From Tahibacter amnicola (lineage in GTDB: Bacteria > Pseudomonadota > Gammaproteobacteria > Xanthomonadales > Rhodanobacteraceae), in contig NZ_CP104694.1 in NCBI RefSeq assembly GCF_025398735.1, positions 4,117,001 through 4,181,000 on the forward strand: a stretch of DNA of 64,000 bases. The letters are read 5' to 3'. Numbering within the stretch: the stretch's first letter is position 1; every line of letters begins with the position of its first letter. The notes under the pieces are model-generated. The model saw only the letters and a list, made by a program, of their open reading frames with translations. It did no database searches and was not told the origin of the DNA. The translations under genes and the position numbers were made by a program. Below are positions 1-29,878 of this stretch, piece by piece.

Positions 1-1316
1 ATGACGCCGTCGGTCAGCGAACGGGGCTTCATGCGGATCGTTCCCCCGGCCGGCGTGCCGCCCACGATGAACGCGCCCCATACCACGTCGTGGTCGGAAT
101 AGCCGGTCTCCGGATGATGGAACACATAGGGCTTGGACGACGCGCACTGCTGCAGCAGCCACTGGTGATCGCCCAGCGCAGCGTCGATGCGGGCCTGCCA
201 GGTTGCGGCGTCCGAATAGCGTCCCAGCACGACACCGCGGCCACCGTAGTCGCGCGCCGGCTTCAGGACGAAGCGTTCACGCTGGCTCAGCGCGAGTTCG
301 CGCAGATCGTGCTCGGCGTCTTCGAATCGGACCGGCCCCGGCAACATCAGGCTTGTCCACGGAATCAGCGCATCAATCACGCCGATTTCGTCGCGCGTGA
401 ACCAGGCATCGTCGCGCATGGCCGTCATCAGCGCGAAGGTGCGCTTGTCGCCGGAGAAGAAACTCGTGGGACCGTCGAAGGCGACCAGATGCCCCGCCGT
501 GCAGGCAGCAAATGTCTGGCGCGACACGCCTTGCCCGTCATTCCGGACGAGCACGTGCACCGGCTGGCCATTGCAGGTCACGCCCGAGGGCCCGTAGGTC
601 AGTTCAGATTCGTCGACGATCGTCGACGTGACACATTCCATGCCCAACCGCTGCGCCGCCTCGGCAAACCATCTCGCCACGTGCACGCTGGCGAACTCCC
701 GGAACCGGGGATCGACGAGCATCGCCAGGCCAGCGCGACCACCAGCGGCAACATCGGGCTGTCGCCGGCAGATCTTCGCGACGTGGTCGAAGAGATAGCC
801 AACGGTGTCCTTGCAACGCAGGGAAAGACCCTGGCGCTCCAGGTACTGCGCCGTGACCGGCGTGTCGAGATAGATCGGCAGCCAGGCCTGCGCGTAGAAG
901 CCGCTGGCACCAGCGCCCATATTGGCTTCGAGAATCCTGAACCCGTCGTCCCCGTACATCAGGTCCAGCCGGTAGACCTCGTCGTCATAGCACGACGGCA
1001 CGTCGAGCACCTTGACCGCCGTTTCGGCATCGGTCATACCCCAGAACCGCGCCGCCAGCGATGGCGCCGCCCGGACCAGGCGCAACGGCATGCCGACGAT
1101 CAGGCGACCCGCCTGGCGCGTGACCTCTTCCAGGCGCTCCAGGAACGGCGTGCCGACCAGGAGCGGAACCGGCTGGTCCACGGACCAGTCGTGCAAATGG
1201 GGCATGCCGCGACCGGGCACCAGGGGGCCAGAGGCGAACGGCTGCTCCGCCAGATAGCGCGCGAACCGTTCGGATTCGGGCGACAGTTCGCGATGGCTGT
1301 CGAAGGCACTACTCAT
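1..1316 (-). CDS. ATP-grasp family ligase-like protein, partial (C-terminus beyond left edge)
   Basis: About 438 codons are open from an ATG at 1316 to the window edge, so the C-terminus is missing. The start overlaps the stop of the exporter-peptidase gene by 4 bases (ATGA), pointing to translational coupling in the biosynthetic operon. Two motifs fit an ATP-grasp fold: RILEANMGAGASG in the first half, and RFVLKPARDYGGRGVVLG towards the visible end, a glycine-rich ATP loop preceded by the usual Lys. The order of the blocks resembles circularly permuted ATP-grasp proteins and glutathionylspermidine-synthase-like ligases. Such enzymes join a carboxylate to an amine through an acyl-phosphate. 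Inference: it could attach an amino acid or amine to the cluster product or make an unusual precursor. The substrate cannot be read from the sequence. No signal peptide is seen, so it is probably cytoplasmic. Confidence 0.6.
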   Translation of the reverse strand, partial: MSSAFDSHRELSPESERFARYLAEQPFASGPLVPGRGMPHLHDWSVDQPVPLLVGTPFLERLEEVTRQAGRLIVGMPLRLVRAAPSLAARFWGMTDAETAVKVLDVPSCYDDEVYRLDLMYGDDGFRILEANMGAGASGFYAQAWLPIYLDTPVTAQYLERQGLSLRCKDTVGYLFDHVAKICRRQPDVAAGGRAGLAMLVDPRFREFASVHVARWFAEAAQRLGMECVTSTIVDESELTYGPSGVTCNGQPVHVLVRNDGQGVSRQTFAACTAGHLVAFDGPTSFFSGDKRTFALMTAMRDDAWFTRDEIGVIDALIPWTSLMLPGPVRFEDAEHDLRELALSQRERFVLKPARDYGGRGVVLGRYSDAATWQARIDAALGDHQWLLQQCASSKPYVFHHPETGYSDHDVVWGAFIVGGTPAGGTIRMKPRSLTDGV

Positions 1317-4300
1317 GGCGCGGTTCCTGGCAAAGGGAGAAAGCCTGTCGCGACGGTGTCGACGACAAGCACACGGTCCGGCAGATGCGACGAAGTGAAT
1401 CCGGACGGGCGCGTCGCCGCGGTGTCCACATAGGACTCAACCGCGACGTACACGTCTTCCGGCAAGGCAGCGGCACCGACGAATTCCAGCGTCAGCGTGC
1501 GGCGCACATCCAGGCCATCGCGCAGGACGAAAAGCTGGTAACCGCCCGTCTTGATGAGACCCGTCGCGTCGATCCGCTGGCCATCGTCCAGCACGATTGC
1601 GCGCAGCTGCGCCGGTGAGGGAACGGCAATCGTCAGGGAATTGGCCCCCCTGTGGGATGCGAGCGTGAGACGCAGCGTGCGCGAACGCACTTCGAACTGT
1701 CCCAGCCGCTCGATCGCGCCACAGCACTCCACACGACGGAATACCTGAGACGACTCACCGCTCCAGGGAAACAGCGCGGCGTCGCGGCGTTCAAACCCAT
1801 CGGGAATCGTCGCACTGTCACCGCGCACGGATTCATAGGCCTGGTTCGAATCACGCCGCACGATGCGATCGGTGTTGTATGTCGGCGTGTCGCGGCTATC
1901 CAGCTGACTGACGGCGAAGAACTGCACGGCGACAGCGGCAGCCAGCGCTCCCAACATCGCGAAGCCTCGGGTCGCCGGCATCGCGACGCGACCGGAACCG
2001 CTCCAGGGCAACCACACCACGAGCCAGAGCGCAGCGCCCAGGCCCGGAGCAGGAAGCCGGGAAACACCAGCCACCTGCACGATGGCATCCTGAAGCAAGG
2101 GCCAGCTGGCGACGAACGCCAACGCCGGCGCCACCAGCGGATACTGCGGCAGGTAGCGCCAGGCGAGCACGAAGAATACCGTTCCAGTCACGACCGGCAG
2201 AGCCAGTCCGGGCGCGAACCACGACAGCAGGAGTGCCACGAGCGACAGGACACAGGCGTTCGCCGGCGTGGCGTATTCCGACTGCCCGGCAAATCGCAGG
2301 GCAGCGGCCAGCGCCACGGCCGAAACAATCGGCCAGCCCATCCGAATGACAGGCGCACTGATACCGAGGGCTTGCGCTGCAGCGTCGAACGCCGCTCCCG
2401 CCACCAGCGCGACAGATACGACACCGAGCGTCCACAGTGTCCGCAGTCCCAGCGCGGCCAGCTGGTGCGGCTGCCAGCGACGAGCGGTGAATGCTATGAC
2501 TGCGATAGCGACCAGCAGCAGCCCCCACATCACGGCTACCGGCATCCACAGGTGGATACCGGCAACGCGGGCGCCAATGACGGCGGGCAACCCCGCCGGG
2601 AGAGGCGCCGAATTCCAGTACGTGTGCGCGGACGCACGCAGCACTGCGGCCAGCCGTGTGAACTGCGCTTCGTCCAGGCGCTCCAGGCGATCGCCGGACA
2701 GGTGATAGCCACCGTCGCCCACGACGTGGCCCAGGGAAACACCCGCGATTCCCGCGCGGGAATAGACGGACAGGTCGGTCGTGTTCGGCATCAGCCGGTA
2801 CAACGCGCCAATCGCCCCGCTGTAGGACAGGCCAGCCGCCGATTTCAATGCCACGGCAAACGTCGTCGCCGGGATGGCTCCCAGGTCGTAAGCCACCAGG
2901 GGGCCCGCCGCGCCGAGCGAGTCGAGGTTGACGACATAGCCCGCCCGATTCGCCAGCGGGTGCTGGTTGACGAAGGCCTTGGCGCCCCGCGCTCCCTGCT
3001 CTTCGGCATCGGTGAACAGAAGAATCAGGTTCTGCGTCACGTTCTCGCGCACAAAGCTGGACTGGGCAAATGCCATGACGGCCGCCACGCCCAGCCCGTT
3101 GTCGGCGGCGCCGGGGCCAGCCGGCGCGGAATCGTAGTGCGCACTGATAACCAGGGCCGGACGCGACGAGTCAGGCAGCCGGCTGGCGATGATGTTGCGC
3201 AGCGAGACACACTGGCGCGTGTCGCAATCGGTGGCGCGCTGATTCTCGACGGAGAAACCCGCCAGGCGCAGATCGTTCTCAAGCCGGTCTGCCATCGCGT
3301 CGTTGCGGAGGCTGCCGGTCGGGTGCGGTTGCTGCTCACCGAGCCACGTCGCCAGGTAGCGCTGGGCCGCGCGCCCGACCGCGACATCGTCCGTGCTTTC
3401 CACACCACGCGTGCCCAGGTTCGGGATCGCAGCCGCCAGTAGGACCAGGCCCATCGCCAGCACCGTTGCGACACGCCGGGAACCCGGCCGGCCCCGTAGC
3501 AGCGTCGGCAACGACGGTTCCTCCGTGGTGGAGGGAGAAGCGGCGCCCTCGGCGGGATCGATCGCAAGCGCTGCCGGAATCTGCCAGCGATCCCCTTCGG
3601 CAACCGGCGACGCCACGTCTTCCCGCGAGCGGCGGAACTGGCCGTCGGACAGTACGTACAGGTGATCGGCCGTCGCGAAGAAGGCCTCGTCGTGACTGAC
3701 GACGATGACTGCCTTGTTCTCCCGCTTGAGGGCGGGAATCACCTGCGTGTACAGAAACCGTCGGAAGTGCGGGTCCTGGTCGGCCGCCGGTTCGTCGAAG
3801 AGATAGATGTCCTTGTCTTCGGCCAGCGTCGATATCAGCGCAAGCCGCCGGCGCTGGCCGGTGGAAAGACGCGTCTGGCTCCAGCGATTGCCCTGCAGTG
3901 CTGTCTTGCCGTCTAGTCCGAAATCGGCAAGCAGTGTCTCGATCGCCGCACGCCGTCCCGGAGTCAGGTGCTCCACGGACAACGGAAGCGTAGGGAACGG
4001 GAAATAGTCGAAAAACAACGCGGCAAACCGCTCCCTCAGGTGGAGTGCCGACGCGACGGGGTTGCCATCAGCCAGCAGCTGTCCCGACTCCGGTGCGTAG
4101 AGACCACAGATCAGCTTGCACAGCGTGGACTTGCCACTGCCGTTGCCTCCGGTAATGAACGTGACTTCGCCGCGACGCACGACCAGGTCGATCGGGCCGA
4201 CCGAAAATAGCGGGCGTGCGCGTTCATCGCGGTAGCTGAAGCCCACGCCGCGCAGCTCGATGGACTCGGCGACCGGTACCGGCGTCTGCGGTGTGGTGTC

Positions 4301-5221
4301 ATCGTCCAACACGAGTTCGTCGAGGCGTCGCAAGGCCACGCGCGCATAAGTGAAGCGCTGCATCACATTGATCAGACTTCCAACCGGCCCGCGCAGGTAA
4401 AAGGTGACAAGCAACGTCTGCGCAAGCACCGCCTTGTCCAGGCCCAGCAGCGCCGACGGCAGGCTGACCATCATCACCAGCAGCAGCAACAGGAAGATCT
4501 CGGTCCACTGCCCCGAAATTTCCCAGTGCAGATCAGACCGCACCACAGCACGCCGGATAGTTTCCAGCAGGCTCTCCATGTCGCGATGCAGGAAACGCGA
4601 GCGGCGACGCTCGCTGAGCATGAACTCCTTCTTGCCGTAGGCCAGCGCTTCGTAGGCCTCGATCAGGCTGTCCTGGGTGTGGCGCTCGTCATTGAGAATC
4701 CGCGCCGCACGGCGCTGGAACACCACCGAGACGGCTACGCCGATGCCAGCGACGCCGAGCACAAACAACACCAGTTTCCATGACAGATAGGCAACGTAGC
4801 CGATCCCGCACAGCAGCAGCAGGGTGCTGAACAGAGCGATCGGAATGCTCGCGAGCGCGTGCGCCACCTGGTACGCATCGACGGTCAACGCGGAATAGAC
4901 ACGCGGCGGACCGATTTCCTCGATGCGCCGCACCGAGGCCCCCATGAACCGCGTGATCAGGTCACGCCGAATCCGCAGCGTGGCGTCCTGGGCGAGTGTG
5001 CTGAGCAGGTAGCGCGCCGACGTATTGAGGACAAGCAATCCGAGCAGCAAGAGTGCAGCGGACCAAAATCCCATGCGCGGCGCGGATGCCGAAATCGAAC
5101 GGCCGATCTCGGCGATGACGAAGATGCCAACTGCGGCCGCGACGGCGCTCAACGCCGCTGCGAACAGCATTGATGGCAGCATGTCGCGCAGCGCGAACCA
5201 TTGTGCGCTGCTGCCGGGCAT
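1313..5221 (-). CDS. Cyclic-peptide-type ABC exporter fused to a membrane M28 metallopeptidase
   Basis: A single 1302-residue frame. Residues ~1-320 are an ABC membrane domain with several hydrophobic helices. The nucleotide-binding domain follows, with Walker A GGNGSGKST (K364), signature LSTGQ near 453 and Walker B YLFDEP near 475. This layout matches the cyclic peptide exporter family of PvdE and SyrD. After a helix near 575-595 comes an M28 zinc aminopeptidase domain with HYD (H695, D697), the bridging Asp in AADNG (~706), the EE pair (E740/E741), an Asp in NLDSLG (~767) and GYH (H840), so all ligands appear present. Residues ~880-1100 hold more membrane helices, and the tail is a beta-rich domain like those of membrane-bound M28 proteases. 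The peptidase should face the periplasm. Inference: it exports the cluster peptide and trims it on arrival. It lies 88 bases after the MbtH gene and is coupled to the ATP-grasp gene by an ATGA overlap. Confidence 0.88.
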   Translation of the reverse strand: MPGSSAQWFALRDMLPSMLFAAALSAVAAAVGIFVIAEIGRSISASAPRMGFWSAALLLLGLLVLNTSARYLLSTLAQDATLRIRRDLITRFMGASVRRIEEIGPPRVYSALTVDAYQVAHALASIPIALFSTLLLLCGIGYVAYLSWKLVLFVLGVAGIGVAVSVVFQRRAARILNDERHTQDSLIEAYEALAYGKKEFMLSERRRSRFLHRDMESLLETIRRAVVRSDLHWEISGQWTEIFLLLLLVMMVSLPSALLGLDKAVLAQTLLVTFYLRGPVGSLINVMQRFTYARVALRRLDELVLDDDTTPQTPVPVAESIELRGVGFSYRDERARPLFSVGPIDLVVRRGEVTFITGGNGSGKSTLCKLICGLYAPESGQLLADGNPVASALHLRERFAALFFDYFPFPTLPLSVEHLTPGRRAAIETLLADFGLDGKTALQGNRWSQTRLSTGQRRRLALISTLAEDKDIYLFDEPAADQDPHFRRFLYTQVIPALKRENKAVIVVSHDEAFFATADHLYVLSDGQFRRSREDVASPVAEGDRWQIPAALAIDPAEGAASPSTTEEPSLPTLLRGRPGSRRVATVLAMGLVLLAAAIPNLGTRGVESTDDVAVGRAAQRYLATWLGEQQPHPTGSLRNDAMADRLENDLRLAGFSVENQRATDCDTRQCVSLRNIIASRLPDSSRPALVISAHYDSAPAGPGAADNGLGVAAVMAFAQSSFVRENVTQNLILLFTDAEEQGARGAKAFVNQHPLANRAGYVVNLDSLGAAGPLVAYDLGAIPATTFAVALKSAAGLSYSGAIGALYRLMPNTTDLSVYSRAGIAGVSLGHVVGDGGYHLSGDRLERLDEAQFTRLAAVLRASAHTYWNSAPLPAGLPAVIGARVAGIHLWMPVAVMWGLLLVAIAVIAFTARRWQPHQLAALGLRTLWTLGVVSVALVAGAAFDAAAQALGISAPVIRMGWPIVSAVALAAALRFAGQSEYATPANACVLSLVALLLSWFAPGLALPVVTGTVFFVLAWRYLPQYPLVAPALAFVASWPLLQDAIVQVAGVSRLPAPGLGAALWLVVWLPWSGSGRVAMPATRGFAMLGALAAAVAVQFFAVSQLDSRDTPTYNTDRIVRRDSNQAYESVRGDSATIPDGFERRDAALFPWSGESSQVFRRVECCGAIERLGQFEVRSRTLRLTLASHRGANSLTIAVPSPAQLRAIVLDDGQRIDATGLIKTGGYQLFVLRDGLDVRRTLTLEFVGAAALPEDVYVAVESYVDTAATRPSGFTSSHLPDRVLVVDTVATGFLPLPGTAP

Positions 5222-5309: not shown

Positions 5310-5513
5310 TTACGCTTCGCCGAGCGCTTTTCGCAGGCTCAGCGGACGCATGTCTGTCCACACCTTCTCGATGTAGTCCAGGCACGCTTCGCGCGGCTGC
5401 GCCTCACCCACGGCGCTCCACCCTGACGGCAGCTCCCGGTCGGCCGGCCAGATGGAATACTGCTCTTCGTGATTGATGACGGCGAAATACAGCAAATCCG
5501 TGTTGGTATCCAT
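5310..5513 (-). CDS. MbtH family NRPS accessory protein
   Basis: A 67-residue protein with the MbtH-family core: NHEEQYSIWP near the start, LPSGW in the middle, and a C-terminal block around residues 40-60 with the family's conserved Trp (KVWTDMRP). MbtH proteins bind adenylation domains and are needed for folding or activity of many of them. Normal length is 60-75 residues, so it is complete. It sits in the same direction as the NRPS genes, between an export permease and the exporter-peptidase fusion, and is the only MbtH copy in the window. It most likely serves A1, A2 and/or A3. The start is the ATG at 5513, preceded by a purine-rich stretch. Confidence 0.93.
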   Translation of the reverse strand: MDTNTDLLYFAVINHEEQYSIWPADRELPSGWSAVGEAQPREACLDYIEKVWTDMRPLSLRKALGEA

Positions 5514-5549: not shown

Positions 5550-8030
5550 TCAGCTGTCTTTGAGGTAGCGAACCGGGCTGGCCGCCGCTACCCGGGCGGT
5601 AAACGCCAGCAACAATAGAAAGGCGCAGCACAGGCTCAGCAGGGCGCCTCCGGCAAACCAGGACCACGACACCGGCACGCGCAGGTCGAAATTCTGCAGC
5701 CAGCGCAGGATCATCCAGTACGACAAGGGCAGGCTCAGCACCACGGCGACCAGGATGTGCCGCATCTGCTGCATCGACACCAGCTGCGCAATCTGCAACG
5801 GCGATGCGCCGACCACGCGGCGCACGGCCAGCTCCTTGGCGCGGCGGCGCATGACGAACGCCGCCAGGCCCAGCACACCCAGAACGGAAATCAGCAGCGC
5901 TGCCCCCGTGAACATCAGCACCATGCGGAACTGCTGCTGCTCGCCGCGCAACTGGCCGGTCAGGCGAGTCGTCATCGGCGTGGCATCGCTGACGAAGCCG
6001 GGCACCAGACGGATCCAGAGCTGGCGCACGTTCTCCTGCAACTGCGGGTTGCCCGGATCCGTCGACGACACCAGGAAGAAACGCGGCTCGTGCCGGTTGA
6101 CGTTCCAGTCGACGCGCGCCCGGTAGACCATCGGCTGGACAGCCTCCTTCGGGCTGCCGTAGCGGATATTCTCCACTACGCCGACGATGCGCATGGCCAG
6201 GGCAGCCTGGTTCTTGTCGGCGGCACGGACAACCTGGTCCAGGGCCAAGTCGGGCGATGCAAAACCCAGTTCTGCCGCGGCGGCCTGGTTCACCACCACG
6301 TTCACCTCACGCTCCTCGTCAGCCTTGTCGGGAACGCGATAGCTGTCGGAGCCGAAGTTCGGATCGAACAGGCGTCCGGCAACCGACCTGACGCCCAATG
6401 CACTGAAGAATCCGAAGTCGATGTCGTTGATCACCACACCGCGCGCATCCGTAGGCGCCGCGCCCTGGCGCAGCAACTGCTGTGGCGAGGGCGTCTGCGT
6501 GGTGGGTAGCGCGTTGGCGATCGACACCCGCGTCACCGTGGGCAACGCCGCCAGCTGCGCGCTGATTTCGCCGAAGGCGTCGTGACTACCTTCGCCATTG
6601 ACGACGAGCTTGTCGTCCATGACAAAGCCGCGCGGCAGGTGGCGCACATAGGCAATCTGCGAATAGATCGCGAGCGAGCCCACGATCAGCGCCGTGGACA
6701 CCAGGATCTGCAGCATCACCATGATCTGGCGAAGGCGCCCGCCGGAGAGCAGGCGTCCATCGGACGTCGCACTCTCGCGCAGCAGCGCCACGGGCTCGGC
6801 GCGGGACAGCAGCAACGCCGGAACGCTGCCGGCCACCGCCGTTGCAAGCACAGCGGCAAGCACCACCTGGCCGATGACCATCGGCGCCAGAATCGTATCG
6901 ACGGCAATGGGGCGCGCCACAAATGACGCAAATGGCGAGATCAGCAAGGCCGCGACGCCAAAGCTGAGAACGAGCGCGACGGTCGCAAATGCCAGGGCTT
7001 CACCGATCAGCTGTCCGTTCACGTCGGTGCGCGTGGCGCCCAGAATCCGGCGCATTCCGACTTCCTTGGCGCGGCGGGTAGCCTCGGCCACGCTGAGGTT
7101 GGCGAAATTCACGCCCGATATCAGTAGCAATACGAAGGCGATTGCGAGGAATACGAGCAGCTGTACGCGATCGCCCTTCTTCGCGTGGTCCAGATAGGTG
7201 CGGTACTTGTTCGAGTCCAGGTACGCGTCGGTCACGTGCTGCAGAAAAAGCGGCAGTCGCGCGGCATAGTCCTCGCCCTGGTGGCGCACCAGGGTATCGC
7301 GCAGCGCGGCATCGGCTGCGGCGAACCGGTCGGCCCGGTCAAACAGCAGATACGTCGGATAGCACTGGCAATTGTCCCAGCCAGTGATGCGTTCGCGGTC
7401 GACGTTGCCGTTCTCCTTGGCCATCTGGAAGAACGATTCCAACGGCAGGAGCACATCCGGCGACAGGTGCGAGTCCGCGCGCCAGTTCGGCATAACGGCC
7501 GTGACCGTCACTTCCTGCTTGCCCCCCAGCAGCAAGCGGCTGCCCACGACATCGGTACGGCCGAAATACTTGAACGCGGCACGCCGCGACAGCACCGCCG
7601 AATAGGGGTTCTCCAGCGGATTGCTGGCACCCGCGTCGATCGTGACGTCAAACACCTGCAGAAACGCAGGGTCGACAAACAGGGCGACTTCATTGAAGCG
7701 CGCCTGTCCCTGCTGAAGCATGATGCGCAACGGCTGCATCCGCGCCGTCGCGACGACGCCGGGGATGTCCGTGCGCGCGGCGTCGGCGAAGGGGTACGGC
7801 GGGCTGACCGAGCGCTGGCCCGTTTTCACATCGCGAATCTGGATGACGCGCGCAATCCGGTCGCCCTGGCTCAGCCAGGCGTCGTAGTGCGATTCGTAGT
7901 TGACGAAGGCAAGGATCAGGATGCAACCGACAAAGCCGATCACGAACCCCACCAGTTTCAGCAGCGCGGTCCAGGGCTGCTGCAACGAAGCGCGCAGCGC
8001 CATCATGACCGGGGCCATCAATGCGGACAT
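5550..8030 (-). CDS. ABC transporter permease, FtsX/MacB type
   Basis: The frame extends up to 8105, but the start at 8030 is preferred. It lies 11 bases after the ATPase stop, and a GAGGAG ribosome-binding sequence overlaps that stop. This gives 826 residues. There is an N-terminal membrane helix, a large periplasmic domain of the MacB core type, three helices, a second periplasmic region and a final helix bundle, i.e. the two-FtsX-domain layout typical of about 800-residue permeases. Family knowledge: such permeases do not move substrate through the membrane but drive a periplasmic adaptor and outer-membrane channel by mechanotransmission. With the adjacent ATPase and HlyD-type adaptor it forms a MacAB-like pump, likely used to expel the mature cluster product from the periplasm. 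No outer-membrane TolC partner is encoded in the cluster. Confidence 0.88.
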
Positions 8031-8040
8031 GTCCGGCTCC

Positions 8041-8721
8041 TCAGCTCGACGCGTGCAGCTGCCCGTCGCGCAGACGGACGATCCGCCCTGCCCGGCTGGC
8101 ATCATCGTCAGAATGCGTGACCATCACGATGGTGGAACCCTGCGCGTTCAGCGTGGACAGGATCTCCAGCACTTCTTCGCGATTGCGCGAGTCCAGGTTG
8201 CCGGTTGGTTCGTCTGCCAGCAGGAGTTTCGGACGATTGACGATTGCGCGCGCAATGGCGGCGCGCTGTTGCTGGCCACCGGAGAGCTGTGAGGGCATGT
8301 GATCGCCGCGCGCGCTCAGGCCGAGCTTTTCGAGCGCCTCATCGGCCATGCGCGAGGCCTCCTTGCCACGGATGCCGTGGTAGTACACGCCCAGCTCGAC
8401 GTTGGCGCGAACCGTCAGTTCGTCGATCAGGTTGAAACTCTGGAAAATAAAACCAATGTACTTTTTACGCAAACCAGTGCGATGGTCTTCGCTGCCACCG
8501 ACGGTTTCATTGCCCTCCAGCTGGTAGCTGCCACCGTCGGCGCGGTCGAGCAGGCCCAGGACATTGAGCAGGGTCGACTTGCCGCAACCGGAAGGCCCCA
8601 TCACCGCGACGAACTCGCCTCGTTGGATCTCGAAAGAAACGCCTTCGAGCGCCGTTGTTTCGAGCCGGTCGGTACGGTAGCGCTTGTGCAGCGACGTGAC
8701 GCGAATGATGGGATCGGACAT
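8041..8721 (-). CDS. ABC transporter ATP-binding protein (MacB/LolD-like)
   Basis: 226 residues carrying a full nucleotide-binding domain: Walker [10 protein letters not shown] near residue 42, signature LSGGQQQR near 145, Walker [14 protein letters not shown] near 165 and the His switch VTHSD near 200. [11 protein letters not shown] is typical of the LolD/MacB/FtsE class that pairs with FtsX-type permeases, which is what the next gene encodes. The gene ends 11 bases before the permease start and begins 24 bases after the adaptor gene. Cytoplasmic motor of the tripartite pump. Confidence 0.92.
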
Positions 8722-8745: not shown

Positions 8746-9993
8746 TCAGTTCAGCACGCGGATTTCCGCGGCCTCGCCAAAGGTTTCGTAGGAGGAAGTG
8801 ATGACGTACTCGCCAGCCTTGAGACCGGAAAGTACCTCGATGGCCGATTCACTCTGCCGGCCGAGCTTGAGGTCGCGGCGTTGTGCCGTGCCGCGGCTCT
8901 CGTCGTAGACGTAGACGTAGCGACCGCCGGTCTGCGCCACGTAGGGCCCCGACGCAACCTGCAACGCAGAAGCCCCATTGGACAACTGCAGTTGCAGCGA
9001 CAAACTCTGGCCCATGCGCAGGTCAGCCGGCTTCTCGCCGACGAAATCCAGGTCAATGCGAAACTGGCCGTTGGTCACCTGGGGGTAAATACGCTTGACG
9101 GCCAGCGGGAACGACTTTCCGCCGTAGAGAACAGTCGCGTGCTGCGCCACCTGCAGCCGCGGGATATAGAACTCATCGACGTTGGCCTGGACCTTCAGCT
9201 GCGATTCGTCGTCGATCTGACCGATCACGTCGCCTTCGCGCAGGGTCGATCCGACTTCGGCCTTGAGCGAAGTCAGGCGGCCGTCGATGGGCGAGCGCAC
9301 GGCCAGGCGATCAAGCACTTGTTGGGCGATATCGATGTTCTTGTGCAGCATGGACACAGTCGACTGCAGCTCCCGCTCCTGGCGTGAACGCAAGGCCAGG
9401 TTCTCGGCCAGCGAATGCTCGACGAGCTTCTTGAGCTGCTCCTGTTGCTCGACATTGCGTTGCGCGTCTTCCAGCGTTTCCACCGATACCGCGCCGGTCT
9501 TGCGCAGTTCGGTCAAGCGTTTGAGCTGCCGCCGGTGTTTGTCGAGCTGAGTCTGCGCGGCGAGCAGTTCGCGTCCCAGTTCCAGGCGTCGCTGCTCGGA
9601 GGAGATCTGGTTTCCGAGCAGGAGGTTGGTCTGCTCGGCCAGGTCGGCCTGGCCGCGCACCACGGCCAGTTGCAGCGAGGTATTGCTGATTTCCAGCAGC
9701 AGGTCGCCCTTCTTGACCGCCGTGCCTTCCTTGATGTGGATCTTCTCCACGCGGCCGCCTTCGCTGGCACCCAGCACGACCGAGGTCTCCGGCATGATGG
9801 CGCCGCGCAGATTGACGGCGTCCTCGAAATTGGCCTGGCGCACCTGGGCGACACTGATGGAATCTTTCTGGACGCCCGGCAAACTGCGGCTGCGGATTTC
9901 GCGTACCAGCAGCAACGCCGCGAACACGCCACCGACAACCATGGCAATGCGACGCCAACGACGCGCCGGGCTCACTTCAATCGGTCTATCCAT
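8746..9993 (-). CDS. HlyD/MacA-type periplasmic efflux adaptor
   Basis: 415 residues with one N-terminal membrane anchor (hydrophobic ~17-30 after an Arg-rich start), a lipoyl/barrel-sandwich hybrid half (VEKIHIKEGTAVKKGDLLLEI, ~85-105, within a longer match), a long coiled-coil hairpin (~110-225), the second lipoyl half (RSPIDGRL near 235) and beta-barrel and membrane-proximal domains to the end. This is the adaptor layout of MacA and related RND/ABC pump subunits. It bridges the inner-membrane permease and an outer-membrane channel. The start at 9993 is 21 bases past the thioesterase stop, so it is probably co-transcribed with the biosynthetic genes. Confidence 0.88.
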   Translation of the reverse strand: MDRPIEVSPARRWRRIAMVVGGVFAALLLVREIRSRSLPGVQKDSISVAQVRQANFEDAVNLRGAIMPETSVVLGASEGGRVEKIHIKEGTAVKKGDLLLEISNTSLQLAVVRGQADLAEQTNLLLGNQISSEQRRLELGRELLAAQTQLDKHRRQLKRLTELRKTGAVSVETLEDAQRNVEQQEQLKKLVEHSLAENLALRSRQERELQSTVSMLHKNIDIAQQVLDRLAVRSPIDGRLTSLKAEVGSTLREGDVIGQIDDESQLKVQANVDEFYIPRLQVAQHATVLYGGKSFPLAVKRIYPQVTNGQFRIDLDFVGEKPADLRMGQSLSLQLQLSNGASALQVASGPYVAQTGGRYVYVYDESRGTAQRRDLKLGRQSESAIEVLSGLKAGEYVITSSYETFGEAAEIRVLN

Positions 9994-10014: not shown

Positions 10015-10809
10015 TCATACGAAATGCAACTCCGGGAGTTCCTGCGCAGCGCCAGCCAGTGGCGGACGATATTCCGCGACATGCTGGACAACCCAACGCA
10101 GGAGTTCATCGCGATGCGTGTTGATGAAGAAGTGTCCGCCGTCGAAGGCATGCTGCCGGAATGACAGGGAGGTCAGCTCGGCCCAGCGTGCAATGTCGCT
10201 TTCGGGAAAATCGCCGTCCTGCCGGCCGGCAAAGGTGACAAACGGCACCGCCAGTGGCGGTTCGATGACGTGCTGGTAGGTGTCGTTGATCGCCAGATCC
10301 GCCCGCAGCGTCGGTTCGACGAACTCCAGCAGTTCGGGCAATGCCAGCATTTCTTCGGGCATCCCCCCCATCGCCACGAGTTGCGCGAAGAACGCCGTGC
10401 GCGGCAAGTTGAAGACAGGTTCGCGCCGCATCGGCACGTGCGCCGCCGAGCGGCCCGACAGCATCAGCAGGTACGGCAATTGACCGCCTCGCCGACGCAG
10501 TTCACGCACCGTCTCATAGGCCATCAGCGCGCCGAGGCTGTGCCCGAAACACGCAACCGGACGCCGATCGGATGAGACCAGCGTATCGGCGATGTGGGAA
10601 GCCGCCCGTTGCGAATCGCGAAATGGCGCCGTATCCACGAGCGATTCGCGACCCGGCAGACGGACGATACTCAGCTCGATGTCCAGCGGCAGACGATCGA
10701 GCCAGTGATAGAACACCGCGGCGCCACCGCCGGCATAAGGAAACACGACCAGGCGGCTACGGGCTGTCGGGTTGGGTCGCGGCGTCACCAGGAATGGCGA
10801 GGAGGTCAT
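10015..10809 (-). CDS. Type II thioesterase (editing, alpha/beta hydrolase)
   Basis: 264 residues from the ATG at 10809, where the family similarity begins. The frame runs upstream to 10941, but that part overlaps the hydroxylase gene. LVVFPYAGGGA near residue 20 is the typical start of a stand-alone NRPS/PKS thioesterase. GHSLGALMAYE carries the nucleophilic Ser near residue 93. DGGHFFI near the end supplies the catalytic His. Such enzymes clear misacylated or stalled carrier domains. It is distinct from the terminal thioesterase domain of the PKS. It lies 55 bases downstream of the first hydroxylase and 21 bases upstream of the adaptor gene. Confidence 0.88.
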   Translation of the reverse strand: MTSSPFLVTPRPNPTARSRLVVFPYAGGGAAVFYHWLDRLPLDIELSIVRLPGRESLVDTAPFRDSQRAASHIADTLVSSDRRPVACFGHSLGALMAYETVRELRRRGGQLPYLLMLSGRSAAHVPMRREPVFNLPRTAFFAQLVAMGGMPEEMLALPELLEFVEPTLRADLAINDTYQHVIEPPLAVPFVTFAGRQDGDFPESDIARWAELTSLSFRQHAFDGGHFFINTHRDELLRWVVQHVAEYRPPLAGAAQELPELHFV

Positions 10810-10864: not shown

Positions 10865-11581
10865 TCACTGGACCAGCGCCTGCTGCTGCGCACGCTTGGC
10901 GTAGGACGCGTGCAGGACGCGCTTGGCGATCTTGCCGCCATGGCGTCGATAGAGGCGATGCGTCAACCAGGCCACCCAGGCCGGTACCGGCCGGTAAAAA
11001 TCCACAATCAGCACAATGCGCTCAGCCTCGGCTTCCTTGGTCACGCCATGCTCGTAGGTGGCATCCATCACGAACGCCTCGCCTTTGCGCCAGTGCGCCC
11101 TTCCGTCGCCCACATCGATGTAGCACGCCCCCTCGGCAGGTACGACCAGGCCCAGGTGCATGCGCAGGGTGCCGTTCTCCGCATCGCGATGTCGCGGAAT
11201 GTGCTTCCGCTCGGGCGGAAGCCGCGAAAACATAATGCTGCACATGCCCGGTGCAATCGACTCCGCCAGCTTGACGGTTTCGGGAAAATGTTCCGCTACG
11301 TTGGGCATGCGCTCGCCGTAGACCAGCAGATGCAGCAGCTCCCAGCGATCAGTTCCGTACTGCGACGTACGGCCAGGATCGAGGTCTTCCTTGTCCGGCA
11401 TGCTCATGCCGTTGCGAAGGTAGCGCTGGAATTCCGCCAGCACCGTTTCATGGGCTTCCTCGAATTTCGACAGCCAGGGCAATGCGTCGCGACGCCACAA
11501 CGGGCCGCGTCCGATCAGCGAAAATCGCTTGAGAAGCGGGTCGACACGCCGGAAATAGGTTTGCCACAAACGAGTCGTCAC
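10865..11581 (-). CDS. Aspartyl/asparaginyl beta-hydroxylase-like Fe(II)/2-oxoglutarate oxygenase (copy 1)
   Basis: 238 residues starting at a GTG (11579-11581). This start matches the N-terminus of the paralogue next door (LKRF, IG.GP.WRRD blocks align from residue ~18). The core HRDAENGTLRMHLGL gives the metal-binding HxD and the start of the double-stranded beta-helix. A second His follows near FVMDATYEHGV, and an Arg near the end could bind 2-oxoglutarate. Family members (LpxO and Asp/Asn hydroxylase relatives) hydroxylate an unactivated carbon. Inference: it hydroxylates an amino acid or acyl unit of the product, on a carrier protein or free. The GTG overlaps the stop of a small frame at 11578-11745. 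Confidence 0.82.
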   Translation of the reverse strand: MTTRLWQTYFRRVDPLLKRFSLIGRGPLWRRDALPWLSKFEEAHETVLAEFQRYLRNGMSMPDKEDLDPGRTSQYGTDRWELLHLLVYGERMPNVAEHFPETVKLAESIAPGMCSIMFSRLPPERKHIPRHRDAENGTLRMHLGLVVPAEGACYIDVGDGRAHWRKGEAFVMDATYEHGVTKEAEAERIVLIVDFYRPVPAWVAWLTHRLYRRHGGKIAKRVLHASYAKRAQQQALVQ

Positions 11582-11745
11582 GCGTCGCGTCCTGTCAGTG
11601 GTGGAGGGAACCGCCTGCAGGGCAAACCTGTCAGGTTGTGTATCCGTGTTGAACTCTGCTGCCGGCAGGCGGGCGACTCGTGAAGTGTCGGACCAGTACT
11701 GGCAGTCGATCCATTCATCGGCATGTTCAAGCCTTCCTGGATCAT
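11578..11745 (-). CDS. Possible small ORF filling the gap between the two hydroxylases
   Basis: 55 codons. The ATG overlaps the stop of the upstream hydroxylase (ATGA), and its TGA overlaps the GTG start of the downstream one (GTGA), so it would couple both genes. The peptide has two Cys, several Ser/Thr and no recognisable domain or signal. Third-position GC is clearly lower than in the flanking genes, which argues against strong coding selection. It may only be read-through that keeps ribosomes moving between the two hydroxylase genes. Not recognised. Confidence 0.25.
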   Translation of the reverse strand: MIQEGLNMPMNGSTASTGPTLHESPACRQQSSTRIHNLTGLPCRRFPPPLTGRDA

Positions 11746-12452
11746 GCCTTGGACGCCTGGCACAGACGCGCGTAGGCCGATTGCATCATGGCCTTCGCCT
11801 GCAGGCCGACATGCACGGCATAAAAGCGGCGCTGCAGCCACGCGACCCACGAAGGCAACGGATGCAGGAAATCGACGATCAGGATGATGCGTTCCTCGTC
11901 GGCGTCCTTGCGTACTTCGTGCTCATTGGCGCCCACGTCCATCACAAACGCCTCGCCCACTTTCCACGCCAGCGGCTGGCCGGCAATCTCGATCTGGCAC
12001 ACGCCCGACGCCGGCACTTTCAGTCCCAGATGCATCCGCAGCGTGCCGGATTCGCCATCCCGGTGACGCGGAATGTGCTTGCGCTCCGGTGGAAGCCGCG
12101 AAAACATCACGGTGCGGATATCGGGAATTACCGCCAGCGCGGCCAGCGTGGCCGGAAAATGGGGAGCGACCGGTGCGATGCGCTCGCCGCACAGCATCAG
12201 GTGCAGCAGTTCCCAGCGCTCGGGACCATAGTGGGACGTGGTGCCGGGAGCGAGGTCTTCCTTGTCCGGAACGCGATGGCCGCCATCGAGCCAGCGCGCG
12301 AACTCATCGCTGATCGCACCGTGGGCCTGTTCGATACGGGCCAGCCATGCCAGCGAGTCGCGGCGCCAGACGGGCCCTGAGCCGATCGGTGAAAACCGTT
12401 TCAACCAGGGGCTGGCGTAGCTGAAATAAAGCGACGCTATACGCTGCAGCAT
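11742..12452 (-). CDS. Aspartyl/asparaginyl beta-hydroxylase-like Fe(II)/2-oxoglutarate oxygenase (copy 2)
   Basis: 236 residues and a clear paralogue of the protein encoded at 10865-11581. Both share the KRFS.IG.GP.WRRD N-terminal block, the KEDL.PG.TS.YG.(D/E)RWELLHL stretch and the core HRDGESGTLRMHLGL with the HxD metal pair. A further His lies in VGANEHEV. Both catalytic regions look intact, so neither is an obvious pseudogene. Tandem copies suggest two oxidations or two substrates. The start is the ATG at 12452. 164 bases separate it from the PKS stop at 12617, the longest gap inside the cluster, so a separate promoter is possible; minus-strand sequence near 12520 contains an AT-rich TATAGT-like element. 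Confidence 0.82.
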   Translation of the reverse strand: MLQRIASLYFSYASPWLKRFSPIGSGPVWRRDSLAWLARIEQAHGAISDEFARWLDGGHRVPDKEDLAPGTTSHYGPERWELLHLMLCGERIAPVAPHFPATLAALAVIPDIRTVMFSRLPPERKHIPRHRDGESGTLRMHLGLKVPASGVCQIEIAGQPLAWKVGEAFVMDVGANEHEVRKDADEERIILIVDFLHPLPSWVAWLQRRFYAVHVGLQAKAMMQSAYARLCQASKA

Positions 12453-12616: not shown

Positions 12617-13645
12617 TCATGCGGGCTGACCCGAAACGAATACGGCGTCGGAAATTCCGTCCATCGCCGGCACCACGTGTTGCACGTGCGCCACGATGGG
12701 CGCGATGTGTTCCGCGTCAAACAGCGTGTTGTGTTCGCCGGCCAGCCAGTGAACGCTGACCGGTCTGGCGCAGAATGCCTGCCAGCCCAGGTCGGGCACC
12801 ACGTTGCTGTCGCGGTGAAAACCCGCATCGTCGATGCGAAGCAAATCGACCTTGCACTGCAACATGGCGGACGGGCGGTAGGCATTCTTCGCGACGTTGG
12901 TCAGTATCACCTCCAGTACGGCGCGCCGCATCATCGCTTCGGTACCCGGCTCCGCGCGCGACCAGTCGATGCGTTCCGCCACGGCTGCCGCCTGTTCCTC
13001 GGGGCTCAGCGCAGCAACGGTTTCGAGCCAGTCGCTGCCGACCGTCTGCAAGCTGACCATCGACAATTGCGTTTCGATAAAATGACGCTGGTCCACAAAG
13101 CCGTCATCCACGCCCGGCGGATGACCGTCGATGATGACCAGGCGCTCCACGCGCCGGCCGGCGGCTTCCAGCTGTGTGGCCACTTCGAACGCGATCATGC
13201 CGCCGAAACAGTAGCCCAGCAGCGTCAGCGGTGCGCCCTCGTCCGCCGCACGAATGGCCGCGCAGTATTCCATGGCCATCGCTTCGACGGAGCGGTGCGG
13301 TGGCAATGCGTCAGGCGCAAAGCGGCGTGACTGCACCGCATGGATCGTGCGTCCGCCGCCCAGCGCATCCGCAAGCGAGCGATAGCACTGGATTCCCCCA
13401 CCACCCGGATGGATGCAGGCCAACACAGCCCCCCCATCGTTGCGCGCCAACGTGACCAACGGCGTCCACGAAGCGGGCCGCGCCTCCACCAGCGACACCA
13501 GATGAGCAACGGTCGGTGCGCGCACGAATTCGGCGAGGCTGACATGTCTGCCAAACCGGCTGCGCACCAGACTGACCAGCTGCACCGCCTGCAGCGAATC
13601 CCCCCAGAGCGCGGAAATCCGACGATGCCTCCACTGGTGATCCAC
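12617..13645 (-). CDS. PKS C-terminal part: carrier domain end plus terminal thioesterase (frameshifted from upstream gene)
   Basis: 342 codons are open, but the first ~13 are out of frame. The meaningful part starts at the carrier motif GDSLQAVQLV, directly continuing DFRALGG of the upstream frame across a run of six C (13600-13605, plus strand). One extra base restores the full ALGGDSL phosphopantetheine motif. The remainder is an alpha/beta hydrolase thioesterase of ~250 residues: ACIHPGGGGIQCY at the start, the nucleophile elbow GYCFGG, an Asp after VIIDG, and a His in AGEHNTLF. The nucleophile is Cys (codon 13208-13210), not Ser. It releases the finished chain by hydrolysis or lactonisation. 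Apart from the break it is complete and ends at the TGA at 12617. Confidence 0.8.
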   Translation of the reverse strand: MDHQWRHRRISALWGDSLQAVQLVSLVRSRFGRHVSLAEFVRAPTVAHLVSLVEARPASWTPLVTLARNDGGAVLACIHPGGGGIQCYRSLADALGGGRTIHAVQSRRFAPDALPPHRSVEAMAMEYCAAIRAADEGAPLTLLGYCFGGMIAFEVATQLEAAGRRVERLVIIDGHPPGVDDGFVDQRHFIETQLSMVSLQTVGSDWLETVAALSPEEQAAAVAERIDWSRAEPGTEAMMRRAVLEVILTNVAKNAYRPSAMLQCKVDLLRIDDAGFHRDSNVVPDLGWQAFCARPVSVHWLAGEHNTLFDAEHIAPIVAHVQHVVPAMDGISDAVFVSGQPA

Positions 13646-16600
13646 GTCCCAGCAGTTCGCGCCACAGCGCGATCATTTGTTGCAAGATGGATTCGTTGCC
13701 ACCCGGAGCGGCGGCCGCATCACGGTCAGTCGACGGACCGGACGTTGCTGCCCGGCCCAGCCACTGGTCCATGCGCTCGTCGAGTGAATGCCGCGATACC
13801 AGCCATTGGCCCGGTTGGCAGCGAAGTGCCGAACACAGCGCGCGCACCGCTTCGTCGCTGCCCATGCCATGCCGCGCGACGGAGGCACCAAAGGTTTTGT
13901 CCGCATCGCCCCAGGCATCCCAGTTCACCGCGAACCACCGGGTACCGGTATGCGTGGCTCGGTTGCGGCACCAAGCGTCCTGGAATCCGTTAGCCGTCGC
14001 ATAGCCAAAATGGCCAATGCCGCCCAGGATCGACGACATCGACGACATCACTGCAACAAATGCGGGCCTGAGCGCCGCACACAGCGAGTCCAGATGCACC
14101 AGGCCATCGGCCTTGATCGCCAGCTCGGCCCCCACGTGGCGCTGGTCGATGTCGTCGAGCAGCGCCATGGCCCGCATACCGGTTGTCGCCGCGTATACGA
14201 CACCGTCGAGCGCGCCGAAACGGTGCAAGAGCGCATCCTGCAGACGCCGCACGTCCTCCGGATCACTGGCATCGCCGCGGTAGTACACGACCGTCGAACC
14301 GGCATTCACCAGACGGCGCAGGTGCGCGCCGCGCTGTGCCGCCGCCTCGCTCGAGGACAGAATTGCCGCACATCGATCCGGCGGTGGAACCGCGGCGAGG
14401 ACAAGACCGTCCGCAGCTCCCTGTCGGGCAACAACACGAGAAACGGCAAACCCCATCTTTTCGAACACGTGCTGCCAGGCCGATGCCTCCAGCAGAGGAC
14501 CATCGCTACGCAGCTCGAGATCCTCGTAGCGCCACCAGTCGTCCGTCAGCCCCCAGACCAGCTCGGTCCAAGGCATCCACTGCATGGTTTCGACCAGTGC
14601 GAAGGTTCCGCCAGCGGACAACAGGGTGGACAGATTGTCGATCGCGCGCTCCAGCCGCGCCGCGATGTGTAGCACGTTGAAGCCGATGATGACGTCGAAC
14701 TCACCCGGCGAAAAACCCTGCGATGCAGGTTCACCCTCGATATCGAACACGCGCGCTGAAATCCATTCGTAGCCATTTTCCGCCGCCAGCCGTCGCCCTC
14801 CCTGCACGAAGCTCGGACCGATGTCGGTGAAACAGTAGCTGACGTTCAAGGTGTTCAGCAGCGGCGCCAGCTGGCGCGTCAGCGAGCCATTGCCGCCGCC
14901 GATCTCCAGAATGCGTAACGGCCGGCCACCGGTCGACGCCGCCAGTTCCGTGAGCGTGCGACGCAGACGATCGACCGCATCGCGAAAATCACGTTGCGCC
15001 AGGTGGCCCGGCGCGGTTGCGCGCAGGAATCGGGCTGACCCGTCCGGATAGAGCACCGAGACGCCACTCCGGCGTCCATGGAGGACGTCGTCGAAATGCG
15101 CGGCGCAATGCAGCAATCGCCTCGCTGGCCCCGCAAAATCCGGATGCGCGAGCGCCAGTTCCCGTTCGATCTGTGCGGGCGGATGGCCGTCGACGGTCGC
15201 GACCACGACCGTGTCCTCGTCGCGGATGAAGACGCCGCCATCCACGAGTACGCGCACCATCACCTGGGCGATGCGGCGCAACGGTGTCGCCGGGCACAGC
15301 GTGGCGGCGACCTCGGCAACGCGATAGCGCGCGCCCGGCGCAAACCGGGGCAGGTGTCGTGCAACATAGGCCTGTACGATGGCGACTGATAGCCGCGCGA
15401 GCGCATCATGTGCTGCCGCGATCGCCGTGTCGTCCGCTGCCGGTGCCCTCACGAACCCGGCCGCGGCCAGGACGATACGGCGCGCATCCACGCGGGGTCG
15501 CGTCAAGTCGATCTCTTCCACGCCGCTGCCGGCCGGCAAGGGATGACGTCCGAGCAGCGCCAGCTGCAACGGCATCTGCGCACTCAGCGCGGTGGTGAGA
15601 ATCTGGCCAACCTTACCTTGCCCGCCCACCACGAGGTATTTGCCGTCAGGCCTGAACGCCTGGGCGGCGGCGGTTTCCTCCGGTCGTGCCGGGATGTAGT
15701 CCCGCGCCATCCACTGCGCCGACAACCACAACTCCCGGAATGACTCGGTGCCGCCAACAGCCGCCGGAACGCAGGACAGCTCGGATGAGTTGTCCACAAC
15801 GATAAACCGCGTCCGGACGCCGGACACTTCCTGCGCGATGACGCGCAGCGCCCCCGCCAAGGCCGCGCGCGTCGGCTCGACCTCTCCGTCCTGTCCCGAA
15901 CTGAGGGCGATCACGGCCAGTACGTCGCCCGCCGGACGGTCGCCGCTTCGCAGCACGTGCCGCGACAGCCCGAGCAGGAAGGATAAGTCGCCTGCACCGC
16001 CGCGATTTTGGGCGAGGCTCCAGCCATAAAGAATGCGGTGGTTTCCGCTACCCGTTGCTGCCAGATACGTAGCAAGCCGGATGAGGTCGTCACCGCCACC
16101 TCTCATGGTGACCTTCTGGGCCAGGACGGCGAACTGGCTGCCGGGCGCAATGCGGACGACGCCATGGCCCTGGCCACGCAGGATCTCGCACAGGCCGGCA
16201 AGGCCATCCACGCTGCCGTCGTCGAAGACCAGCCAGGAGGCCGTGTCCCCACCCGGCGAGAGGCGCAGATCGCACGGCCGCCACACAGGCCGGTAGAGCC
16301 ATCCCGCGCACTCATCCTGCGGTGTCGCACACGGCGCGGCAGCCCGCTCAATCCAGTAACGGCGGCGCTCGAAGGCATACCCCGGCAGATGTATCCGTCG
16401 GCGCGACTCGCCTGAATAGAATGCTCTCCAGTTGACCTCGCCTCCGGCGCACCAGAAGCCCGCCAGGCGCCGATAGGCGACCACCGTCGTGTCGTGTGCC
16501 GCCCCCGGGATGTCGGCGATACGCAGTGGCAGATTCGCAGCCGTGGCGTGTGCCTGCGCCAGCCGCGTCAGCGTCGTTCCGGGCCCGATTTCCAGCACTG

Positions 16601-29868: not shown

Positions 29869-29878
29869 CAGGCGCGGT

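Follow-up and report, generated by a model that had tools for sequence, protein, structure and literature searches.

The window, the whole stretch of 64,000 nucleotides analysed, contains a gene that joins a cyclic-peptide ABC exporter to a membrane M28 peptidase in one protein. Judged from sequence and gene context, this fusion has about an even chance of being an exporter-coupled deacylating prodrug peptidase, a zinc counterpart of the serine-type ZmaM fusions. The gene is a single open frame with an ATG start and encodes 1302 residues, which form an exporter, a linker, an anchor helix, an M28 domain, a set of helices, and a β region in that order:

1313..5221, minus strand: fused gene, cyclic-peptide ABC exporter plus membrane M28 peptidase (profile matches, frame reading)
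3602..5221, minus strand: exporter part, residues 1–540 (TIGR01194 at 24–529; Walker A 358, signature 452, Walker B 472)
3473..3601, minus strand: linker, residues 541–583 (frame reading, alignment)
3416..3472, minus strand: hydrophobic helix 584–602, putative M28 anchor (hydropathy; helix also in structure models)
2633..3196, minus strand: M28 catalytic domain, residues 676–863, with the full metal ligand set (Pfam match, alignment)
1910..2584, minus strand: C-terminal membrane region, residues 880–1104 (hydropathy, model; eight helices in the model of a relative)
1316..1909, minus strand: C-terminal β region, residues 1105–1302 (models; low confidence in the fusion's own model)

A preliminary description of the window had a PvdE/SyrD-like exporter running into an M28 peptidase, and both profiles indeed score above their cut-offs within the one frame. 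The NCBIfam profile TIGR01194 (cyc_pep_trnsptr) matches residues 24–529 with 304.1 bits against a cut-off of 286.2, and Pfam M28 (PF04389) matches residues 676–863 with 107.7 bits against a gathering cut-off of 21.3. Alignment locates Walker A at 358, the signature LSTGQ at 452, Walker B at 472, and the H-loop motif SHD at 509. This motif set and the score place the exporter part in the family of PvdE and SyrD. Pfam gives no match to an N-terminal C39 domain in the fusion, which is therefore not a peptidase-containing ABC exporter of that class, and no match to the beta-lactamase family (S12).

Hydropathy places one helix (584–602) N-terminal to the M28 domain and several (880–1104) C-terminal to it, and the models fold residues 1105–1302 as a β region, which agrees with the further helices and beta domain described earlier. 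Four Lys/Arg residues lie within the 15 residues preceding helix 584–602 in a hydropathy and charge scan, a pattern that would place the M28 domain outside the cytoplasm.

The metal ligands and catalytic Glu of the M28 domain are H695, D707, E740/E741, D767, and H840 by alignment. The preliminary description had named all of these, D707 as an Asp near 706, but had also counted D697; this is the invariant Asp two residues after the His, which, from M28 structures, we take not to be a metal ligand itself. In the alignment of 56 relatives (59 less L064, L065, and L066, which are short or remote), the ligand residue is the most frequent one at every position but D767, where 50 of the 56 have Glu and 6 have Asp. 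The Pfam score, the co-catalytic ligands, and the catalytic Glu together assign the domain to M28. The fused domain has lost 9 of the 31 positions conserved at at least 90% in the 56 relatives, including R769 of the NxEARG motif, and forms a long branch (2.45) in a 60-row tree. Its specificity may thus differ, or its activity may be reduced.

Profile matches show that the fusion sits in an NRPS-PKS cluster, the setting given for it earlier. Its neighbours in the window are the following:

1..1316, minus strand: 454-residue gene, overlapping the fusion by 4 bp and running past the left end of the window (ORF, comparison)
5310..5513, minus strand: MbtH-like gene, 67 residues (PF03621, 76.6 bits)
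5550..8030, minus strand: FtsX-type permease, probable member of a tripartite efflux system (profile match)
8041..8721, minus strand: ABC ATPase of the putative tripartite efflux system (profile match)
8746..9993, minus strand: HlyD-type adaptor of the putative tripartite efflux system (profile match)
10015..10809, minus strand: thioesterase, type II by context (profile match)
10865..11581, minus strand: aspartyl/asparaginyl beta-hydroxylase (PF05118, 127.9 bits)
11742..12452, minus strand: second aspartyl/asparaginyl beta-hydroxylase (profile match)
12617..13645, minus strand: carrier protein plus thioesterase (profile match)
13311..18953, minus strand: PKS module KS-AT-MT-KR (profile match)
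18950..23593, minus strand: A-KR-PCP module (profile match)
23590..35787, minus strand: NRPS genes in three frames (adenylation domains interrupted by frame breaks near 29.89 and 33.37 kb)

The 454-residue gene is 25% identical to the gene adjoining a second exporter of this genome, and that neighbour has a weak, below-cut-off match to circularly permuted ATP-grasp. Both NRPS frame breaks lie at G/C runs, so either the cluster is disrupted or there are sequence errors. The assembly line begins with a fatty-acyl-AMP-ligase (FAAL)-type domain, in the second gene downstream of the fusion (L038:6935-11959). No product could be named from a rough reading of the adenylation codes, and no homologue of SfmD, of the tetrahydroisoquinoline (THIQ) pathway, was found in the window or in stretches L038 and L047.

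The same two genes recur unfused. Two family members, G050 and G132, each carry a separate TIGR01194 exporter and an M28 gene in one NRPS cluster, and so does a plasmid of Janthinobacterium lividum, whose cluster shares DUF6817, HlyD, ATPase, permease, and FAAL genes with the fusion cluster. Neither G050 nor G132 shows a FAAL match in the stretch read around its pair. A scan of 197 family genomes gave three other genomes with a relative of the M28 part (E ≤ 1e-10), namely G050, G132, and G052, and each relative lies within or next to an NRPS cluster; in G052 a carrier-thioesterase gene, TauD, and two FtsX genes precede the M28 gene at the contig end. This recurrence supports the reading as an export-coupled prodrug peptidase. 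An Alteromonas M28 gene and exporter were rejected as a further pair, lying 84 kb apart with a stretch free of NRPS matches between them.

A different hydrolase appears to fill the same slot elsewhere. In the second cluster of this genome, a penicillin-amidase-type gene, a TIGR01194 exporter, and the relative of the 454-residue gene follow one another with 4-bp overlaps, and G036 has a penicillin-amidase gene that shares 4 bp with an exporter-FAAL fusion. These acylase-exporter operons of the same genus, together with the FAAL-type start, point to deacylation as the reaction.

In the proposed pathway, an N-acylated NRPS-PKS (depsi)peptide would leave the cytoplasm through the ABC half and emerge on the outer side of the inner membrane. 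There the two-zinc M28 domain, tethered to the exporter, would hydrolyse the N-terminal amide, removing a fatty acid, or a fatty acid with a residue, and the acid released would be the one with which the FAAL had primed the assembly line. The finished product would be taken onward by the HlyD/ATPase/FtsX pump, and the inactive acylated form would protect the producer. The earlier proposal of cleavage at the product's N terminus is retained as to its site, which the charge pattern would put outside the cytoplasm, and sharpened as to the group removed, since a FAAL-type start makes an N-acyl group likelier than a single free N-terminal residue.

A single NRPS-specific M28 clade was considered and rejected: the NRPS label changes 12 times on the 60-row tree, where shuffled labels give a mean of 13.4 changes and 108 of 500 shuffles are equally low. 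Labels are taken from matches in the fetched stretch, often 20 kb long; rows L045, L071, and L093 are also hand-labelled from neighbouring stretches, and contig-end rows such as L055 are possibly mislabelled "no". No NRPS/PKS match is present in the stretch read for 45 of the 60 rows. In two broad scans, 5 of 35 relatives were NRPS-linked versus 0 of 20 control stretches (Fisher p = 0.09); a general M28-NRPS link is thus weak outside the fusion's family. A genome-wide profile search of the fusion's genome found M28 above the cut-off at 7 places, the fusion included; the flanks of two others, L095 and L096, contain no NRPS match.

The many tree rows without NRPS context, like the loss of R769 and eight other conserved positions, would suit a real fusion whose peptidase does other work, whether inactivating re-entering product as self-resistance, trimming a different end, or acting on other peptides. 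We consider this unlikely, because the FAAL start and the same-genus acylase-exporter operons favour deacylation, and because THIQ clusters, in the available text on them, employ a membrane peptidase for N-acyl removal.

The joined form was found once within the sampled genomes, in this genome only. No second exporter-M28 fusion was detected in 8 genus genomes with all candidates scored, nor in 197 family, 369 class, and 398 phylum genomes with the best two or three candidates per genome scored within the E limits listed; the four sets overlap and include the fusion's own genome. The fused form is likewise absent from the 16 loci of one genome-collection scan, and among the 5000 best plasmid records none covers 80% of the fusion query. 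In the selection of long frames opened from the scan lists, those resembling fusions in G068, G079, G736, G871, and G942 are ordinary exporters of 546–580 residues, and that of G036 is the exporter-FAAL fusion rather than an exporter-M28 one. The search for two-domain proteins suggested in the preliminary description thus yields one case, in an NRPS-PKS cluster, beside the unfused pairs in NRPS clusters of G050, G132, and J. lividum, and a wide occurrence of the fusion without NRPS context is not borne out. The best-matching open-licence titles and abstracts mention neither an exporter-M28 fusion nor M28 in NRPS maturation, and the matched passages of PMC8648761 and PMC4219678 contain nothing on the peptidase. 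A few papers combine "nonribosomal peptide synthetase" with an M28 term, and their titles point to fungal genomics.

A fusion seen once could also be two neighbouring genes, either because an assembly base error removed the stop between them or because M28 is made mainly from an internal start, with the biology of the unfused pairs. The candidate start and its motif are:

3509..3511, minus strand: TTG codon 571, candidate internal peptidase start (alignment, sequence context)
3520..3524, minus strand: GGAGG, Shine-Dalgarno-like, 8 nt upstream of TTG571 (motif)

We rate this account as slightly less probable still. In its favour, closing the end gap left by the aligner would bring Met1 of the G050, G132, and Azospirillum M28 proteins, all unfused, to 571; the J. 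lividum Met1 would lie at 593. The five unfused exporters in the alignment end before or inside linker 541–583, the aligner putting the final three residues of two of them beyond it. Across 12 cluster genes, a GGAGG or AGGAG at this spacing precedes 8 of 787 internal in-frame start codons. Of 186 TTG codons only TTG571 has one, and of the 12 called gene starts (two of them at the frame breaks) only 1 does; the motif is therefore no habit of the cluster and may be chance. The peptidase alone may also be made from TTG571 besides the fusion.

Codon scores bear on the same account. The fusion frame scores best in 25 of 28 overlapping 15-codon segments starting at residues 501–636. Only the segments starting at 556, 561, and 571, all within the linker, deviate; every frame scores weakly there, with frame 2 slightly ahead, and these three segments favour two genes, as do the two frame breaks at G/C runs in the same cluster. 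Against this, the other two frames contain a single stop over codons 501–640, at codon 628 of frame 2 within the peptidase part; with none at the linker, one inserted or deleted base could not split the genes there, which excludes a single-indel error. A stop between the exporter and M28 parts may instead have been lost by base substitution. That the M28 domain is a catalytically dead or slow periplasmic adaptor docking the exporter to the HlyD/FtsX pump is very improbable, since the domain retains its catalytic Glu and its complete set of zinc ligands, even though its long branch, its lost conserved positions, and the adjoining HlyD, ATPase, and permease genes would agree with it.

The deacylating peptidase reading has parallels in saframycin- and safracin-type clusters. 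Two such THIQ-type clusters contain an M28 gene and an SfmD homologue, the M28 gene directly after it in G1149 and a few genes on in G829. In the text available, SfmE of the saframycin pathway is reported to be a membrane peptidase that excises an N-terminal fatty acid, and the safracin peptidase XscK is a handle used to control prodrug/drug formation. The gene order, rather than their own sequences, suggests that SfmE and XscK belong to M28. An M28-type peptidase is thus probably not new to NRPS biology, and the earlier view of M28 as a separate invention for export-coupled cleavage is probably wrong. The fusion has the layout of this type, an anchor helix, M28, and several helices, and its FAAL-type domain corresponds to the acylated starter; the G1149 M28 copy shows only two hydrophobic segments in the same crude scan.

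Somewhat more tentatively than in the reading of the fusion itself, export-coupled prodrug peptidases may have been built twice on one exporter family, with a serine S12 peptidase in the ZmaM type and with zinc M28 here. M28 membrane peptidases would then be a widespread NRPS maturation class drawn into clusters several times, and the fusion would be direct proof of their action at the exporter. The fused protein joins two functions otherwise tied by gene neighbourhood alone. It opens to test what M28 membrane peptidases do in NRPS clusters and provides a search key for hidden acylated prodrugs. If the reading is true, cleavage has been wired to export convergently, and the starter acid has to be subtracted from the product mass predicted from such a cluster.

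SfmE, XscK, NapG, and DinC (saframycin, safracin, naphthyridinomycin, and dnacin) resemble the fusion as NRPS-pathway membrane peptidases with an acylated starter, and the 741 residues given for DinC in the text available are the size of most M28 proteins compared here. They differ in that the available descriptions mention no exporter fusion and their M28 membership is suggested by gene order. DidK of the didemnin pathway, as far as described in the available text, is a membrane hydrolase that cleaves off the N-acyl portion of a prodrug and is important for export; unlike the fusion, it is a CAAX-protease homologue that favours an ester, with no ABC exporter fusion described (PMC10811503). 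GPAA1 shares an M28 domain and several helices with the fusion but is eukaryotic with other substrates, and its chain 8imy_G aligns with the model of a relative over 620 columns with TM-scores of only 0.26/0.34. ERMP1-type membrane proteins, also with an M28 domain followed by several helices, are likewise eukaryotic and act on other substrates.

In pyoverdine maturation, the exporter PvdE is paired with deacylation outside the cytoplasm by PvdQ, and PvdQ-type enzymes are penicillin-amidase-like. PvdE and the exporter part of the fusion are both of the TIGR01194 family; a PvdE/PvdQ-like pair is present in the second cluster of this genome and not at the fusion. An N-acyl-D-Asn starter is a defining trait of the ZmaM-type fusions. 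ZmaM, EdeA, and PamJ, in the text available, carry a ClbP-like S12 peptidase fused to an ABC "cyclic peptide transporter" domain (PMC9889268), and thus, like the fusion, combine a prodrug peptidase and a cyclic-peptide-type ABC domain in one protein of an NRPS cluster. In the ZmaM type a serine peptidase of beta-lactamase fold lies N-terminal to the ABC part, whereas in the fusion a zinc M28 peptidase lies C-terminal to the exporter.

The window comes from a one-contig genome of 6,458,662 bases (positions 4,117,001-4,181,000). The fusion of a cyclic-peptide exporter with an M28 peptidase proposed in the preliminary description is real at the sequence level, as one open frame contains both domains and each scores above its cut-off.

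1313-5221, minus strand: fusion gene, a single open frame of 1302 codons
Residues 24-529: exporter domain, TIGR01194 (cyclic peptide export ABC transporter), 304.1 bits (cut-off 286.2)
Residues 676-863: peptidase domain, Peptidase_M28, 107.7 bits (cut-off 21.3)

The M28 metal ligands are H695, D707, E740/E741, D767, and H840, and 9 of 31 near-invariant positions are lost in the M28 part.

The cluster is encoded on the minus strand and is sequentially composed of NRPS genes (35.8-23.6 kb), A-KR-PCP, PKS, and carrier-thioesterase genes, two Asp hydroxylases, a thioesterase, HlyD, an ATPase, an FtsX permease, MbtH, the fusion, and a 454-aa gene (window 1-1316, minus strand) overlapping the fusion by 4 bp. 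Beyond the window, read leftward as far as stretch L047, lie an NRPS gene with a fatty-acyl-AMP ligase (FAAL)-type N-terminus, further NRPS genes, TauD domains, and a DUF6817 gene. An NRPS started by a FAAL yields an N-acylated product. The FAAL-type domain is present in the sequence and points to a product that would be N-acylated, the acyl start being its expected chemistry. The 454-aa protein has no Pfam match at E 0.1 and is perhaps an amide ligase acting on the product.

Two frame breaks, both at G/C runs, interrupt NRPS adenylation domains at about 29.89 (29.88-29.90) and 33.37 (33.30-33.40) kb, which means that the sequence has errors there or that the cluster is broken. Stops in the two other frames of the fusion therefore matter. 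Across codons 501-640, these frames contain a single stop, codon 628 of frame 2. Inserting or deleting one base could thus not yield two genes at the linker. A stop codon lost by substitution error, which would mean two genes, is a possible alternative. The fusion's frame has the top codon score in 25 of 28 windows starting at residues 501-636; at about residues 551-575 of the linker, scores are near or below zero in all frames, with frame 2 slightly ahead in three windows. When aligned with the fusion, unfused exporters (family members G050 and G132, Janthinobacterium lividum, G079, and a second cluster of the same genome) stop before or within the linker, except that two of the proteins have their last three residues placed elsewhere. 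If the end gap left by the aligner were closed, residue 571 would align with Met1 of the unfused M28 proteins from G050, G132, and Azospirillum, and residue 593 with that of J. lividum. Residue 571 is a TTG codon with GGAGG 8 nt upstream. GGAGG or AGGAG lies 6-17 nt upstream of 8 of 787 internal in-frame ATG, GTG, or TTG codons in 12 genes; among the TTG codons, TTG571 is the single case (1/186). Since just one of 12 called gene starts has such a motif, that at TTG571 may be due to chance. The peptidase part of the fused protein may also be produced separately from TTG571, a relic of two older genes.

No second exporter-M28 fusion was found beyond the window's genome in scans of 197 family, 8 genus, 369 class, and 398 phylum genomes; these sets overlap and include the window's own genome. 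All candidates were scored in the genus set, and the best two or three per genome, among matches within the E limits, in the family, class, and phylum sets. With at most five candidates of each genome scored, four of the 197 family genomes match the M28 part at E <= 1e-10: the window's own and three others. In G050 and G132, the M28 gene and a TIGR01194 exporter (389.6 and 381.6 bits) share cluster and strand, and no FAAL match was found in the stretches read around these pairs. Both clusters also contain a nicotianamine-synthase-like gene (L042:16947-17831 and L045:4454-5341), hinting at a metallophore product. In G052, also of this family, the M28 gene lies at a contig end, preceded by the end of a gene for a carrier-thioesterase, then by TauD and two FtsX genes; A, C, or KS domains were not found in the surrounding stretch, and a TIGR01194 exporter is on a separate short contig. 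The J. lividum plasmid NZ_CP049829.1 carries a single-strand run of exporter (449.6 bits), DUF6817, HlyD, ATPase, permease, and M28 peptidase. Nine more genes follow, ending with those for a FAAL and an acyl carrier protein, before the NRPS/PKS part begins. Judged by gene content, this run is much of the window's gene set, unfused. In Alteromonas sp. a30, an NRPS cluster contains four Asp-hydroxylase-like genes (L191:3263-7111) as well as an exporter. Genes for HlyD, an ATPase, and FtsX lie nearby; the stretches read contain no M28 match.

Other hydrolases occupy the same slot in the genus.

L097:16334-19461 and L098:458-2989: second NRPS cluster of the same genome, with acylase-exporter overlaps
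L041:2340-5753: exporter-AMP-binding fusion of G036 (same genus), 1137 aa, with a FAAL-type C-terminal part, behind a penicillin-amidase gene

According to gene calls made in this analysis, 4-bp overlaps connect three genes of the second cluster: one of the penicillin-amidase family (711.7 bits), a TIGR01194 exporter (382.4 bits), and one related to the 454-aa gene. The last of these, adjoining the exporter, is ATP-grasp-like and shares 25% identity with the 454-aa protein. In G036, the penicillin-amidase gene overlaps the exporter fusion by 4 bp, and the AMP-binding domain matches the FAAL of the window's cluster (39% identity). The G036 protein is a second unusual exporter fusion in the genus. 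Thus, a single genus shows one exporter-hydrolase fusion and two cases in which the exporter gene overlaps that of a likely acylase.

M28 genes also lie near homologs of a tetrahydroisoquinoline enzyme. In genome G1149 (L180), one directly follows a gene matching 6vdp, a solved 3-methyl-L-tyrosine peroxygenase (E 5.2e-71), an activity that a published passage ascribes to SfmD. In genome G829 (L137), the M28 gene neighbors a second 6vdp homolog (E 1.3e-58), an MbtH-like frame, two O-methyltransferase-family genes, and a RibD_C-family gene (179 aa). We take these clusters to be saframycin- and safracin-type, presuming a fit to the safracin gene list. SfmE of the saframycin pathway is described as excising an N-terminal fatty acid (PMC9570651), and promoter replacement of the safracin peptidase gene xscK as a means of controlling prodrug and drug formation (PMC10983751). 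NapG and the 741-aa DinC are regarded as membrane peptidases (PMC9854587, PMC7570522). The cited passages name a peptidase family for none of the four; gene order suggests that SfmE and XscK are M28. The preliminary description proposed that an M28 version of such cleavage would be a separate invention, but the gene order beside SfmD homologs indicates that M28 in NRPS maturation is probably already known under other names.

Relatives of the M28 membrane part are present in many genomes. One common criterion, an NRPS/PKS match within the stretch fetched, applies to 1 of 17 phylum-scan relatives, 4 of 18 relatives in the class of Micromonospora, 3 of the 16 genome-collection loci, and 3 of 6 plasmid records opened out of 13 found. 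None of 20 control stretches, taken from 12 of those genomes, has such a match. The two broad scans, whose profile was built using three rows of the collection scan, together give 5 of 35 against 0 of 20 controls (p = 0.09), making a general link to NRPS clusters suggestive, not firm. In an M28 tree of 60 rows (15 NRPS-linked, 45 not), the label changes 12 times against a shuffled mean of 13.4. Such scatter would mean that M28 peptidases were drawn into NRPS clusters repeatedly. The fusion forms a long branch of unsure placement.

In the proposed mechanism, the ABC half would export an acylated precursor for deacylation by the M28 half on the outer side of the membrane, a location suggested by charge and ABC architecture. 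Deacylation by M28 is proposed by analogy with the tetrahydroisoquinoline pathways and the acylase-exporter overlaps. Several points weigh against this reading: the fusion was found once, near-invariant positions are lost, the NRPS genes carry frame breaks, NRPS linkage is scattered on the tree, and the stretches read around the G050 and G132 pairs contain no FAAL match. The export-coupled cleavage of the preliminary description is plausible. The new part is M28 fused to a cyclic-peptide exporter. Compared with ZmaM, the fusion is a zinc counterpart in reverse domain order.
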